Assembly (NCBI RefSeq): GCF_001699815.1 | Contig: NZ_MCGB01000109.1 | Location: 1-47,112 of the forward strand | DNA: 47,112 bases | Origin: Ralstonia pickettii | Lineage (GTDB): Bacteria > Pseudomonadota > Gammaproteobacteria > Burkholderiales > Burkholderiaceae | Reading direction: 5' to 3' | Shown here: piece after piece, positions 1,586 to 27,572 of the stretch | Numbering within the stretch: the first letter of the stretch is position 1 | Layout of the letters: each line of letters begins with the position of its first letter | Translations under genes and position numbers: made by a program | Notes under the pieces: generated by a model | Told to the model about the DNA's origin: nothing | Database searches by the model: none | Seen by the model: the letters and a program-made list of their open reading frames with translations, nothing else

Positions 1586-2557
1586 ATGGGGCGGAGGAGA
1601 AAACAAGCATCCACCAGCGACGTGCTGTTGGCGCTGCCGTGGTGGATGCTGGCCCTTGGCGCGGCGGCCAGTTATCTGATTTTTCACAACATCCTCCCGG
1701 CGGCGTTTAGCGCCAATCCGCTGTTGAGCGGCGTCGGGATGTTGGCGCGCGGGCTGGCCTGGATGCCCGCGCTGCTGCTCGGCTTCTTTGCCGTGCTGTC
1801 GTACTTGCGGGAGCGCAGCCAGCAGGCCGATGCCCGGCTCGGCCCCCCGCGCACTGAACCGACTGGGCGATCCCGCCCGCCGAAGGCGCCGCCCCAGCCC
1901 GCCCGCAACGCAGCGGGCAGCATCACGCCCAACCCGCCTCATCCGACTCGCAACACCCGCTGCCCCCCACAAGCCGCCACGCCGGCAGAACCCGCCCCGC
2001 CCCAAAGCTGGACGCTGGAGGCCATCCACGCACTTGAGTGGAAGCGGTTCGAGCTGCTGTGCGTGCAGTACTACGAGCAGATGGGCTTCACGGTGAAGAC
2101 GGTGCCGCACGGCGCAGACGGCGGCATTGACGCCACGCTGTACATGGCTGGCCAGAGCGCGCCCGTGGCGGTGGTCCAGTGCAAGGCGTGGTCCAAGCCC
2201 GTGAAGGTGGAGCAGGTGCGGGCGCTGGGCGGCTCCATGCTGGCGCACAAGGTCAAGCGGGGCGTGTTCTGGTCTTTGTCCGGTTATGTCGGCAACCCGG
2301 TGCAGGAGTATTCCGAGCTTGCCGGTATCCAGCTATTGGACGGGCCGGCGGTGCTTGAGCGCATCCGCGCGCTGGCCGAAGACAAGCAGGCCGCGCTGCT
2401 GGCGAAGGTGTTTGAGGGGGATTCCCGAACGCCTTCGTGCCCGGCTTGCGGGGTGAAGCTGGTGGCGCGGAATGGGAAGAGTGGGGCGTTTTGGGGGTGT
2501 AGCAATTTCCCTAAGTGTTGGAATCGATTGGAGATGAAGCACGGCGTGTCTATGTAG
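1586..2557 (+). CDS. Membrane-anchored Mrr-type restriction endonuclease with topoisomerase zinc ribbon
   Basis: 323 residues. Two hydrophobic segments (about residues 13-33 and 50-72) anchor the N-terminus. A Pro-rich linker (about 83-138) leads to an Mrr_cat-like nuclease domain (about 140-260). Its PD-(D/E)xK-type site is visible as D182 in GGIDATLY followed by the QCK triad (Q198, K200). The C-terminus has a four-cysteine ribbon (C285, C288, C305, C311) like the zinc ribbon of bacterial topoisomerase I. Mrr-domain proteins cut modified or foreign DNA; the soluble domain is expected in the cytoplasm. The gene keeps the local high GC, unlike the block that follows. Restriction is inferred from the family; the membrane-bound subgroup has no well-established target that I can name. 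Confidence 0.8.
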   Translation: MGRRRKQASTSDVLLALPWWMLALGAAASYLIFHNILPAAFSANPLLSGVGMLARGLAWMPALLLGFFAVLSYLRERSQQADARLGPPRTEPTGRSRPPKAPPQPARNAAGSITPNPPHPTRNTRCPPQAATPAEPAPPQSWTLEAIHALEWKRFELLCVQYYEQMGFTVKTVPHGADGGIDATLYMAGQSAPVAVVQCKAWSKPVKVEQVRALGGSMLAHKVKRGVFWSLSGYVGNPVQEYSELAGIQLLDGPAVLERIRALAEDKQAALLAKVFEGDSRTPSCPACGVKLVARNGKSGAFWGCSNFPKCWNRLEMKHGVSM

Positions 2558-2663
2558 TCGCGTTTTGGTTGAGTCAGTGCTCTAGGGATGGAGCTGCGAT
2601 AAGCAGTTAGTACTTCCAAAAAATCTGCAAGGGAAAAGACAAGTTTGAAAAACGGGGGAAGGA

Positions 2664-3669
2664 ATGAAAACTGAATTGCCAAATGAACACGGTCTTTCTG
2701 ACGGCTCCTTACGGCACTTGTTGTTTTATCAAGATGGGAAACCCTCTCTCAGCGATATCCAGCATCAAGGTCTCGTAGCCGGGGTGGCTCGCGACACAAG
2801 CATGTTGGTTGTGTCACCGACTTCCACCGGGAAAACGCAGCTCGCGGTCTGGGCGATTGCCAAGGGTATTGAGAATGACTGTAGAACAGTTTACTTGGTA
2901 ACCCATCGGGCTTTAGCAAAGCAGAAGTTTGACGATTTCAAATCGCTGTTCTTATCAAATTTTCTGTCTGGCAACCCCGCTTCATTAGTGCTCGCAACCG
3001 GCGATAGCGTTGAGGATTCTGAGGGAGAGTTCCCCCCGGAACCTCTGAAAGCATCGCTCTTAGTGGCGACCTATGAGAAATATCTTGCCATGTTGTCTGC
3101 TAGCGGCGTTCCCCGGGACATGAGCAATACAGTAGTTGTGTGCGACGAGATTCAGCTCATTGGAGACAAGAATCGTGGCCAGAACGTCGAGATATTGCTA
3201 ACTCTTCTTCGCAATGCGGGTTGGCGTCAATTTGTTGGGTTATCTGCAGTTTTGCCTTCCCGCGATGCACACGATTTGGCTGACTGGCTGGGCGTGCAAC
3301 TAATTATGAAGGCAACCCGCGAAAAGCATCTTAGCTATCGCACAGCGTTTAGCGTAACCCTGTGTCATCCCGGTGTGGATCCGAGCGTTGCACCCGTGGT
3401 AGCTGCCTGCGGGCGCCTTTGTGTTGTGGAAAGTGTGGATTTGGGGGAGGCACTCCTTCGCTATTGCGAAGGTTCTCTGTCGAACGACCAGCTTTATCGA
3501 TGGCTTGCAACACCCGGGCAAGCTTTGGCGGCAGATCTGCCATTCGTTGAGCGCGTCTAAAGAGAAGCTCGTGCCCATATACAGCAGGGGTGGGAATGAC
3601 CTTCATGAGCGGTTTCGGAGTGGTCGGACTGCTGTGCAAACAGACACATTGCTGCTCGCGCGGGAGTAA
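2664..3669 (+). pseudogene. Superfamily 2 (DEAD/DEAH, Ski2-like) helicase, frameshifted and truncated
   Basis: The first 298 codons give a clear RecA1 domain: motif I SPTSTGKT (K57), motif Ia THRALAKQK, motif II DEIQ (161-164) and motif III as GLSAVLP (SAV in place of SAT). A stretch like motif IV (RLCVVES) follows. The frame stops at 3560. The +1 frame then continues from about 3540 (SASKEKLVPIY) to 3669 with ERFRSGRTAVQTDTLLLA, which resembles helicase motif V, and ends before the usual GVN and motif VI. This points to a frameshift plus loss of the C-terminal half. An intact family member is normally more than 700 residues. Codon use is AT-richer than the flanks, consistent with transfer. 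If the first frame is translated alone, it would be an ATP-binding half-helicase. Confidence 0.65.
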
Positions 3670-25807: not shown

Positions 25808-26662
25808 TTACGGGGCAACGGCCGTGGCGGACACCTCCTGGCTCCAGTAAGTCGGCAGCGCGCCATACGGGTTCGGCAACGTCTTGTTCGTGATGAACAC
25901 GGCGGCAGCGCCCTTGCTGGATGCGTTGCGAACGAAGGTTTGCATCTGCGTGGCCGATGCCGCGTAGACGATGTGCGCAAAGCGTGCCGTCGGATAGTTG
26001 GCCTGCCACGCCAGTGGCGCATAGCTGGCGTAGTGCTTTGCGCTGTCTTCAAACACAACGAGCTGGTCCGCTACCGGCAGGCTTGCATAGATTTCCGGCA
26101 CATTGGTGCCCGGGTTGCCCGTGACCGTGTAGTTGGGCGACAGCCCCTTGATGTAGTTGTAGACCGATTGGTAGAACTGGATGTGTGCCGTTGTGCTGTC
26201 GGCGGTCATCTCGTCGATGAAGAAGCCGTCGACCTGATACAACGCCTGGTAGGTGTTGATGTCCTGCACCACCGCCGACAACGACCGGTTTGCGTACGAG
26301 CTGGACACGTACCCGATCACCTTGCCGCCGGCGGCATGCACCTTGGCGACGGCGGCAACGTAGTTGGCGTCCTGCGTGGTGCCTGGGCCGCTGTTCGGGT
26401 TGAGGATGACTGTGGTCGGTACCGACGTCGCCGCTGTGGCTAGCGCACCCCATTGCGTGGCGCCGGTGCCCGACGGATAGATGTAGGACGGTACCAGCAG
26501 CGCTTCAGCACTGGCATGCGGGGCGCCCATCAGCGCGCCGGACACCAGAGCGAATGCAGCACATGCGGCGCGCGCAAACCTGCGCTTTGCGTTGCCCATT
26601 GGCGATGCCACGGCCAGCGTGGCGAATGCGGGCGAACGCCCCCCCGTTTGTATCGTTTTCAT
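25808..26662 (-). CDS. Spherulation-specific family 4 protein, predicted secreted glycoside hydrolase (GH135-like)
   Basis: 284 residues from the ATG at 26662, preceded by AGGGG. An N-terminal region with a basic stretch (AKRRFARAACAAF) and hydrophobic core to about residue 53 serves as an unusually long signal sequence. The mature domain is the spherulin-4 TIM barrel: LLVPSYIYPSGTG, VILNPNSGPG, KVIGYVSSSYANR, QVDGFFIDEMTAD with the conserved acidic pair, YTVTGNPGTNVPEIY, FEDSAKHYAS and RFAHIVYAA. A characterised homologue, fungal Sph3, cleaves a galactosamine-containing exopolysaccharide. A polysaccharide-remodelling role in biofilm is inferred. Expression is probably set by the riboswitch just upstream. 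Confidence 0.85.
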   Translation of the reverse strand: MKTIQTGGRSPAFATLAVASPMGNAKRRFARAACAAFALVSGALMGAPHASAEALLVPSYIYPSGTGATQWGALATAATSVPTTVILNPNSGPGTTQDANYVAAVAKVHAAGGKVIGYVSSSYANRSLSAVVQDINTYQALYQVDGFFIDEMTADSTTAHIQFYQSVYNYIKGLSPNYTVTGNPGTNVPEIYASLPVADQLVVFEDSAKHYASYAPLAWQANYPTARFAHIVYAASATQMQTFVRNASSKGAAAVFITNKTLPNPYGALPTYWSQEVSATAVAP

Positions 26663-26703
26663 TGTGTGCCCCTGACCACGCAAATCGCTGCGTGCGTCCT
26701 CAG

Positions 26704-26820
26704 GCCCGCCCCCCTGCGGGTTGGCGGGCAACTGGCTGACTTCTTCTGGAGAAGTCCCTGTAGCTTTGCGTCGCCGGATCACTCCGGTTTTGCCCAGACC
26801 TCTGGGTGTGAACCCATTGA
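26704..26820 (-). ncRNA. Cyclic-di-GMP-I (GEMM) riboswitch with terminator-like expression platform
   Basis: Read on the minus strand, the segment has the GEMM landmarks in order. There is GGGCAAAACC, a short stem with a GTGA tetraloop (CCGG-AGTGAT-CCGG), the conserved joining segment GACGCAAAGCTACAGGG, a second stem with loop (ACTTC-TCCA-GAAG) and the AGCC that closes the ligand pocket. A G/C hairpin follows at once: GCCCGCC (26710-26704 side) with GGCGGGC (26729-26723 side). It could be an expression-platform hairpin, although the T-run is poor. The spherulin-4 start is 42 bases further on. Assignment rests on recalled consensus, not on a covariance search. Confidence 0.8.
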
Positions 26821-26830
26821 AGAAGGACTC

Positions 26831-27116
26831 TACCGGGGCGGCGCCAGCCCGGCAAACGGAGAATGCGCAAACGAGTCGGCTGTCGCATGAAGCGTTGTCG
26901 AGACCCCACGTTGCGCGTTGCCATGGCAATCAACCATCACGCCAATGAAGCAGTGACGGCCTTCCGCCATTCTTCCCATGCCGCGCTTCCCCTGACCTGC
27001 GCCAGAACCTCTGGTGCATTCCGCCGCCGCAGACCCCGCCCGTATCGTCAGTCCACGCAGCGCTGCCGGTTGCCGCTGTGTTTCTTGTCCACGTATCTGA
27101 CTGAGGAGAAGCTGCA
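26831..27116. promoter_or_regulatory. Divergent promoter region between riboswitch and secreted-protein gene
   Basis: No gene is seen in these 286 bases. They must hold the promoter that feeds the riboswitch on the minus strand and the one for the secreted protein at 27117. No convincing -35/-10 pair stands out in this GC-rich sequence. GAGGAG lies eight bases before the ATG at 27117. Confidence 0.35.
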
Positions 27117-27572
27117 ATGAACATCCGCTCGAATGTGCTTGTCATCCGTATCGTGCTGTTGACGGTGGTGTCCCTGATCGCCTCGCTGGCGGCCACGGCC
27201 GCGTTGGCTGCGCCGCCAGCGACCGTCGCATCCTGTGACGGCATCAAGGATGCGTACCCGATTCTCGGCACGCAGTGCGCCAACCACTACGCCAAGATCA
27301 ACCACGCGCCCGCCACTGCGGCCGAACGGCGCGAGACGTATTCAGCGCGGATCGCGGTTTTGGACATCTTCCGCAAGGCGCTGCTGTGCAACGGCATGTA
27401 CGGCGCATCGAAACCGGCGCAGCAGCGCTTTTCAAGCGGCGAGGCTGGCCACCTTCAGGCCCTGGCGAACCTGAACGCGGCAATGACGATTGCCGGCGAC
27501 CCGAACGTGCCGGTGCTCTACACCGCCTCCGACTTGAGCGACGTGTCCATCAACAAGTCGCAGTGCAAGTAA
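27117..27572 (+). CDS. Secreted uncharacterised protein
   Basis: 151 residues with a clear signal peptide (VIRIVLLTVVSLIASLAATAALAAP, cut near residue 32). The mature part has four cysteines (TVASCDGIKDAY, TQCANHYAKI, ALLCNGMYG and the final SQCK), which could form two disulfides. It is largely helical by appearance and matches no family I know. It is divergent from the riboswitch-controlled gene, so possible co-regulation is only positional. Function unknown. Confidence 0.7.
   Translation: MNIRSNVLVIRIVLLTVVSLIASLAATAALAAPPATVASCDGIKDAYPILGTQCANHYAKINHAPATAAERRETYSARIAVLDIFRKALLCNGMYGASKPAQQRFSSGEAGHLQALANLNAAMTIAGDPNVPVLYTASDLSDVSINKSQCK

Follow-up and report, generated by a model that had tools for sequence, protein, structure and literature searches.

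On the minus strand of a Ralstonia pickettii contig (NZ_MCGB01000109.1, assembly GCF_001699815.1; the whole stretch of 47,112 nucleotides analysed here is termed the window), the aptamer of a cyclic di-guanosine monophosphate (c-di-GMP) riboswitch of class I (GEMM-I) is followed by a G/C hairpin, a small stem-loop, a Shine–Dalgarno (SD) sequence and a gene of the Spherulin-4/GH135 family (Table 1). c-di-GMP is mostly known for switching polymer synthesis, and the leaving of biofilms is less well understood than their building. We computed the identity of the aptamer, the family and fold of the encoded protein, a set of conserved and mutually exclusive pairings in the leader and the co-occurrence of the gene with pel. 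From these we infer that the RNA would bind c-di-GMP and that binding would probably switch off the translation of a secreted GH135 alpha-1,4-N-acetylgalactosaminidase, which most likely trims the bacterium's own Pel polysaccharide and may have a role in dispersal.

Table 1. Features of the leader and its gene, in window coordinates.
Feature	Positions	Strand	Evidence
Candidate sigma-70-type promoter, TTGCCG-N17-TAGAGT	26827..26855	-	15/15 Ralstonia leaders
c-di-GMP-I (GEMM-I) riboswitch aptamer	26724..26804	-	Rfam RF01051, 55 bits, full model
G at the presumed Vc2 G20 position (model position 11)	26794	-	RF01051 alignment; tally over 42 leaders
GCC of UUGCC, aptamer 3' end; also outer base of hairpin A	26727..26729	-	
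G/C hairpin A (GCCCGCC ... GGCGGGC), putative anti-aptamer/anti-sequester hairpin	26704..26729	-	Pairs kept in 34 distinct segments of 40 leaders
Putative anti-SD GCC, common with the hairpin A 3' strand	26703..26705	-	Pattern search, 40/40 leaders
Stem-loop B (GAC ... GUC), predicted to bring the anti-SD to the SD	26674..26698	-	Pair conservation, 37 distinct segments
SD AGGGG plus C; GGC (26670-26668) predicted to pair with the anti-SD	26668..26673	-	Pattern search, 40/40 leaders
Spherulin-4/GH135-family protein, 284 amino acids (aa), probable signal peptide; D150, E151, E205 invariant	25808..26662	-	PF12138; 5d6t/5c5g; alignment of 24

The covariance search with RF01051 that the original prediction had proposed as a check matched the full model (1–87) at 55 bits, above the curated gathering threshold of 35 (E = 3.8e-8); the genome, 5.24 Mb in size, has no other match at E <= 0.001. 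The parts of the GEMM core named in that prediction are in place, namely GACGCAAAGC at 26772-26763, a GNRA-capped stem closed by a GUGA tetraloop and the closing AGCC, seen as CAGCC close to the aptamer 3' end. The span proposed for the element, 26704..26820, holds for 26804-26724, which is aptamer, and not for 26820-26805, which lies outside the model. Because at least one copy of the GACGCAAAGC 10-mer occurs in 26 of 100 shuffles, this motif alone is weak evidence; it is the covariance score, together with the conservation within the genus (15 of 16 genomes, our own included), that confirms a c-di-GMP-I riboswitch before a spherulin-4/GH135-like gene. Model position 11, which we take to be G20 of the Vibrio cholerae aptamer Vc2, is G in 40 of the 42 leaders tallied, A in one (L016) and C in one (L093); G here presumably favours c-di-GMP and A would suggest 3',3'-cyclic GMP-AMP (cGAMP). 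The GCC of UUGCC presumably holds the ligand-contacting C that corresponds to C92 of Vc2, so that both positions would carry the expected bases. Full-length match, GNRA tetraloop, G at the G20 position and 3'-end GCC are all shared with Vc2, whereas the target, a GH135-family gene, and the platform, which combines an anti-aptamer hairpin with a conserved SD-sequestering helix, differ from Vc2 and known GEMM-I switches. By a count made by eye, 9 of 15 Ralstonia leaders can form a small CCCAG...CUGGG hairpin over the aptamer 5' end, including the G20 position (26806-26793, minus strand); if transcribed, it may be a second competitor.

The encoded protein matches PF12138 at 175.1 bits (gathering 30.2; E = 2.3e-51), and its matches to 5d6t and 5c5g place it in the Sph3-like fold. 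The acidic residues D150, E151 and E205, taken as catalytic, are invariant in all 24 aligned sequences, and E205 aligns with Glu222 of Sph3 if, as we assume, the entry numbering is offset by 50. D150 aligns with residue 166; Asp196, named beside Glu222 in extracts of PMC12054363, was not placed. On its sequence the protein is probably a secreted enzyme with endo-alpha-1,4-N-acetylgalactosaminidase activity. An NCBIfam search with it gave no match, and a plasmid search returned one relative. It differs from Aspergillus GH135 Sph3 (5c5g, 5d6t) in being bacterial, probably secreted and preceded by a riboswitch, and in its link to pel, whereas Sph3 sits with the galactosaminogalactan cluster. The GH166 hydrolase domain of PelA (5tcb) belongs to a distinct family and is part of PelA; this genome has both.

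The region between aptamer and gene was compared in 40 distinct leaders, that is, the 42 distinct aptamer loci minus two of genome G032; in L019 no ATG follows the SD and the segment end was set by a separate pattern. The 3'-end GCC of the aptamer and the CGCC next to it pair with a downstream GGCGGGC. The G/C hairpin of the original prediction thus does precede the ATG, but it is not simply 'between' aptamer and gene, since the 3' end of the aptamer itself supplies its 5' strand. Its outermost pair is kept in 31 of 34 distinct segments and the next four in 34, 34, 34 and 33; towards the loop C-G is swapped in some for U-A, G-C, A-U or G-U, and further in pairing declines to 32, 30 and 21 segments. 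Over eleven positions 274 of 374 cells are paired; slid controls gave 217, 114 and 150 (each of 374) and 171 (of 371). Near-invariance of the three outer pairs would follow from a second use of their bases, in the aptamer and in the SD helix, but invariant pairs alone prove nothing. Stem B opens with GAC...GUC in most leaders. For its first three pairs, 108 of 111 cells in 37 distinct segments are paired, A-U and U-A replacements included (slid-strand controls: 3, 56, 4 and 24 of 111).

Pattern searches found a GCC starting in the end of the hairpin A 3' strand and the GGC ending the SD, in the expected order and place, in every leader. Folded alone, the segment from GCC to GGC closes the GCC:GGC helix in 36 of 37 minimum-energy structures (the exception is L012). 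Complete hairpin A excludes both the complete GCC:GGC helix and the complete aptamer, and formation of the aptamer should therefore free the GCC to cover the SD. A simple energy model was run with and without the aptamer barred from outside pairing. Barring it lifted the probability that all three GCC:GGC pairs form from a mean of 0.21 to 0.81, with a gain above 0.2 in 35 of 40 leaders and a rise from 0.008 to 0.97 in the window's own; with the middle stretch shuffled the mean was 0.24, and 715 of 800 shuffles fell below their real leader. No U-run follows hairpin A, and none of the five terminator-like sites found falls in the minus-strand interval from aptamer to ATG; an intrinsic terminator was accordingly rejected.

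The arrangement is conserved well beyond this contig. Exactly one RF01051 match is present in 15 of 16 genus genomes, our own included, and the one Ralstonia genome without a Spherulin-4 gene (G010) also lacks the riboswitch and PelG. Among 299 family genomes RF01051 occurs in 29 and PF12138 in 32, and in 28 of the 29 the aptamer stands directly before the Spherulin-4 gene, the exception being G032 with two other aptamers. Four genomes have Spherulin-4 and no RF01051 match: G039 and G134, whose proteins are divergent, and G115 and G160, whose leaders hold apparent aptamer remnants, that of G160 (L051) appearing degenerate by eye. At 37 Spherulin-4 loci of named genomes outside Ralstonia (the Ralstonia loci L061-L070 lay outside this rescan), the aptamer was found in 20, including Oxalobacteraceae, eight of which duplicate leaders already counted; a gathering-level aptamer was not found at the other 17 (L078, L080, L088, L092, L095-L107), among them the Nitrosomonas, Zoogloea, Acidovorax and planctomycete loci. 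The Caballeronia grimmiae leader (L078, 5890-5943, plus strand) keeps an aptamer remnant of 24.9 bits without the P3 hairpin, and the C that would complete GGC is missing after its SD; judged by sequence, it is a decayed switch. In the Burkholderiaceae genome G032, one GEMM-I aptamer (L016, 1501-1589, minus strand) has A at the G20 position, presumably the mark of cGAMP-type switches, and lies upstream of a 192-aa open reading frame (ORF) with no Pfam match; the other (L030, 1501-1589, plus strand) precedes a protein with an HD_5 domain match (1846-3018, plus strand), as in HD-GYP-type phosphodiesterases, where feedback is possible. RF02278, the Betaproteobacteria toxic small RNA, lies about 1.1 kb upstream of the aptamer in three Oxalobacteraceae-type loci (L089 4662-4724, L091 4730-4792 and L093 91-153, minus strand).

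The gene also travels with Pel. PelG is present in 116 of the 299 family genomes and in 30 of the 32 with Spherulin-4 (Fisher p 8e-12, a statistic that ignores descent); within genus g10, Spherulin-4 is present in 8 of the 10 genomes with PelG and in none of the 30 without it, and within g21 in 5 of 15 and none of 23, likewise uncorrected for descent. In at least four of the 30 genomes with both (G200, G208, G266 and G164) the gene adjoins pelA and is divergently transcribed from it, PelA being recognized by matches to solved PelA in G200, G208 and G164 and by alignment in G266; PelB, PelF and PelG were identified in G200. The window's own genome carries, on another contig, genes matching PelA, PelB, PelD and PelG, together with one DUF3492-glycosyltransferase gene of PelF make-up and two unassigned ORFs in the pelC and pelE places. 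We compared 33 PelA sequences, taken from 32 of the 116 PelG genomes. The N-terminal hydrolase region was shortened (195-208 of 257 columns) in 16 (loci L112-L115, L126, L129-L131, L136-L139, L146, L147, L149 and L150), including the four genomes with the gene beside pelA, and in 14 of these 16 the Glu that intact PelA has in its FES motif is absent; G164 has one shortened and one intact PelA. Replacement of the PelA hydrolase by GH135 was rejected, as shortened and intact forms number 8 and 11 with Spherulin-4 and 8 and 6 without it.

The promoters differ between the genus and its relatives. All 15 Ralstonia leaders have TTGCC, one base, 17 bases of differing sequence and TAGAGT, a possible sigma-70-type promoter by its sequence, which a stricter consensus promoter scan did not report. 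In all 22 Paraburkholderia, Caballeronia and g16 leaders the best sigma-28-like match, of the TAAAGTTT-N11-GCCGATAA type, stands just before the aptamer; its -10 box ends 0 to 3 nucleotides into the aptamer model in 21 of them and 11 nucleotides before it in L018, and the matches were equalled by 0 to 11 of 200 shuffles. A consensus similar to the one used here is given in extracts of PMC3627812. In the window, no TAAAG-N14-GCCGATAA-like promoter of the sigma-28 (FliA) regulon stands out from chance before the aptamer; none of the 15 Ralstonia and three Oxalobacteraceae-type leaders has an above-chance match there, and the best scores in the window and the 14 other Ralstonia leaders (6.7-8.6) were reached by 10-177 of 200 shuffles. 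With the strict pattern also giving 0 matches in the genome and 2 in the reversed control, a sigma-28 promoter was rejected for the window's own genus; a worn relic is possible, since TAGAG..., the best weak match, occupies the relatives' TAAAG spot in 7 of the 15 leaders. A looser pattern gave 143 matches in 12 relatives against 82 in the reversed control, the Spherulin-4 site being among them in 9 of the 12; as this is only 1.7 times the control, the weight comes from the fixed position. Of nine other sites in G091, five precede genes for methyl-accepting chemotaxis proteins or GGDEF/EAL proteins and one a HATPase gene (raw counts); at the remaining three the longest nearby ORF, perhaps the wrong one, gave no family. 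As far as these sequences indicate, the motility link applies to the relatives and not to the window itself. The merRNA of Bdellovibrio bacteriovorus likewise bears a c-di-GMP riboswitch and comes from a motile phase, and FliA-type promoters make up 92 of the 140 specific to that phase; in extracts of PMC3627812, unlike the leader described here, it has no conserved downstream ORF and is proposed as a c-di-GMP store, and the table there marks no FliA promoter for it. Upstream of the riboswitch in the window lies a divergent 151-aa ORF (27117-27572, plus strand) with an apparent signal sequence and no Pfam or NCBIfam match.

We propose that, in the absence of ligand, hairpin A would form from the aptamer GCC (26729-26727) and the downstream GGC, leaving the SD free and allowing the enzyme to be made. 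With c-di-GMP bound, the aptamer would retain its GCC, the outer pairs of hairpin A would be lost, and the freed GCC (26705-26703) would pair with the GGC of the SD, stacked on stem-loop B, and block translation. High c-di-GMP, which activates Pel synthesis through PelD (extracts of PMC8461298), would thus silence a Pel hydrolase, whereas a drop in c-di-GMP would lift the block and so aid dispersal. The reading that fits best is an OFF switch at the level of translation, because the pairings are exclusive, no U-run is present and no terminator-like site separates aptamer and ATG, and the earlier view of a biofilm switch that ties c-di-GMP to a secreted enzyme trimming an amino-sugar exopolysaccharide is supported. 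Several points nevertheless weigh against it. Because pattern searches were run in G+C-rich DNA, the GCC and GGC finds are partly expected, and a C in that place is no rarity, since in 14 of 28 other genes of these loci GGAGG has a C after it. The energy models omit ligand and tertiary structure, and hairpin A is necessarily broken once the aptamer is barred from pairing outside itself. GCC:GGC pairing stays near 0 in L017, L018, L025 and L073, and mean predicted accessibility of the SD core moves only from 0.49 to 0.40, shifts above 0.05 being downward in 25 and upward in 4 of 40 leaders. The Pel statistics are inflated by phylogenetic relatedness, the two Spherulin-4 genomes without Pel are the divergent, riboswitch-less G039 and G134, and 86 PelG genomes lack Spherulin-4, so Pel does not need it. 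According to extracts of PMC12345266 and PMC9135694, Aspergillus Sph3 leaves Pseudomonas aeruginosa Pel biofilms undisrupted and, being specific for poly-N-acetylgalactosamine, releases nothing from native Pel, unlike the PelA hydrolase.

These last reports lend weight to a substrate other than the cell's own Pel, either a different amino-sugar polymer or galactosaminogalactan of foreign (fungal) origin, as do the founding of GH135 on a fungal enzyme and the presence of PgaC in our own genome. We regard it as unlikely in view of the co-occurrence with PelG and the position beside pelA in four genomes; the 15 non-Ralstonia genomes that have both Spherulin-4 and PelG all lack PgaC above the cut-off, and poly-N-acetylglucosamine was rejected as a general substrate. 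Extracts of PMC12345266 and PMC9135694 also describe how Sph3 disrupts N-acetylgalactosamine-rich Pel aggregates made by Streptococcus intermedius; how far the polymer is acetylated will therefore matter. The sign of the switch could also be reversed, c-di-GMP binding raising hydrolase production, for instance for Pel remodelling during biofilm growth. ON switches of class I are known. Fungal Sph3 is, moreover, essential for galactosaminogalactan synthesis (extracts of PMC12054363). A reversed sign is nonetheless quite improbable, as the conserved SD-blocking GCC:GGC helix can coexist with the formed aptamer but not with complete hairpin A, and the sigma-28-like promoters of relatives fit a motile, low-c-di-GMP state. 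Control of transcription, by intrinsic or Rho-dependent termination, seems very unlikely: the stem of hairpin A is terminator-like, but it has no U-run, the minus strand has no such site from aptamer to ATG, and stem B with the GCC:GGC pairing points to the ribosome site. Bc1 of Bacillus thuringiensis, with an aptamer of the same class, has a long platform with two intrinsic terminators (extracts of PMC11218506), unlike the element here. Least credible of all is sensing of cGAMP, which Geobacter GEMM-Ib switches bind (extracts of PMC6456294); the window's aptamer has G, presumably favouring c-di-GMP, and not A at the G20 position, and there are 33 GGDEF matches.

The aptamer class and the enzyme family are already known. 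Among the matches listed from the open-licence PMC literature, none reports a c-di-GMP riboswitch before a Spherulin-4/GH135 gene, and the compact conserved platform and the Pel link are likewise unreported there; extracts of PMC3766115 count 21 polysaccharide-degradation genes under GEMM switches, among which a Spherulin-4 gene may be included. More tentatively than for the OFF switch itself, we suggest a family-wide biofilm-exit gate: outside Ralstonia, in most host lineages, a sigma-28-type promoter abuts a translation-blocking c-di-GMP-I aptamer, and a Pel-cutting GH135 would be made only when motility switching and low c-di-GMP coincide. Nearly every genome examined has a single riboswitch and a single target for it, so the proposed control of the enzyme by one RNA lends itself to testing. 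The bacterial GH135 protein gains a predicted substrate and a regulatory setting, and the compact platform would be useful for the study of how class I aptamers control ribosome access. If the OFF switch is true, a single RNA would couple falling c-di-GMP directly to the release of a matrix-degrading enzyme, and if the gate is true, the same messenger would act on Pel in two opposite ways, switching its synthesis on by way of PelD and its destruction off by way of RNA.
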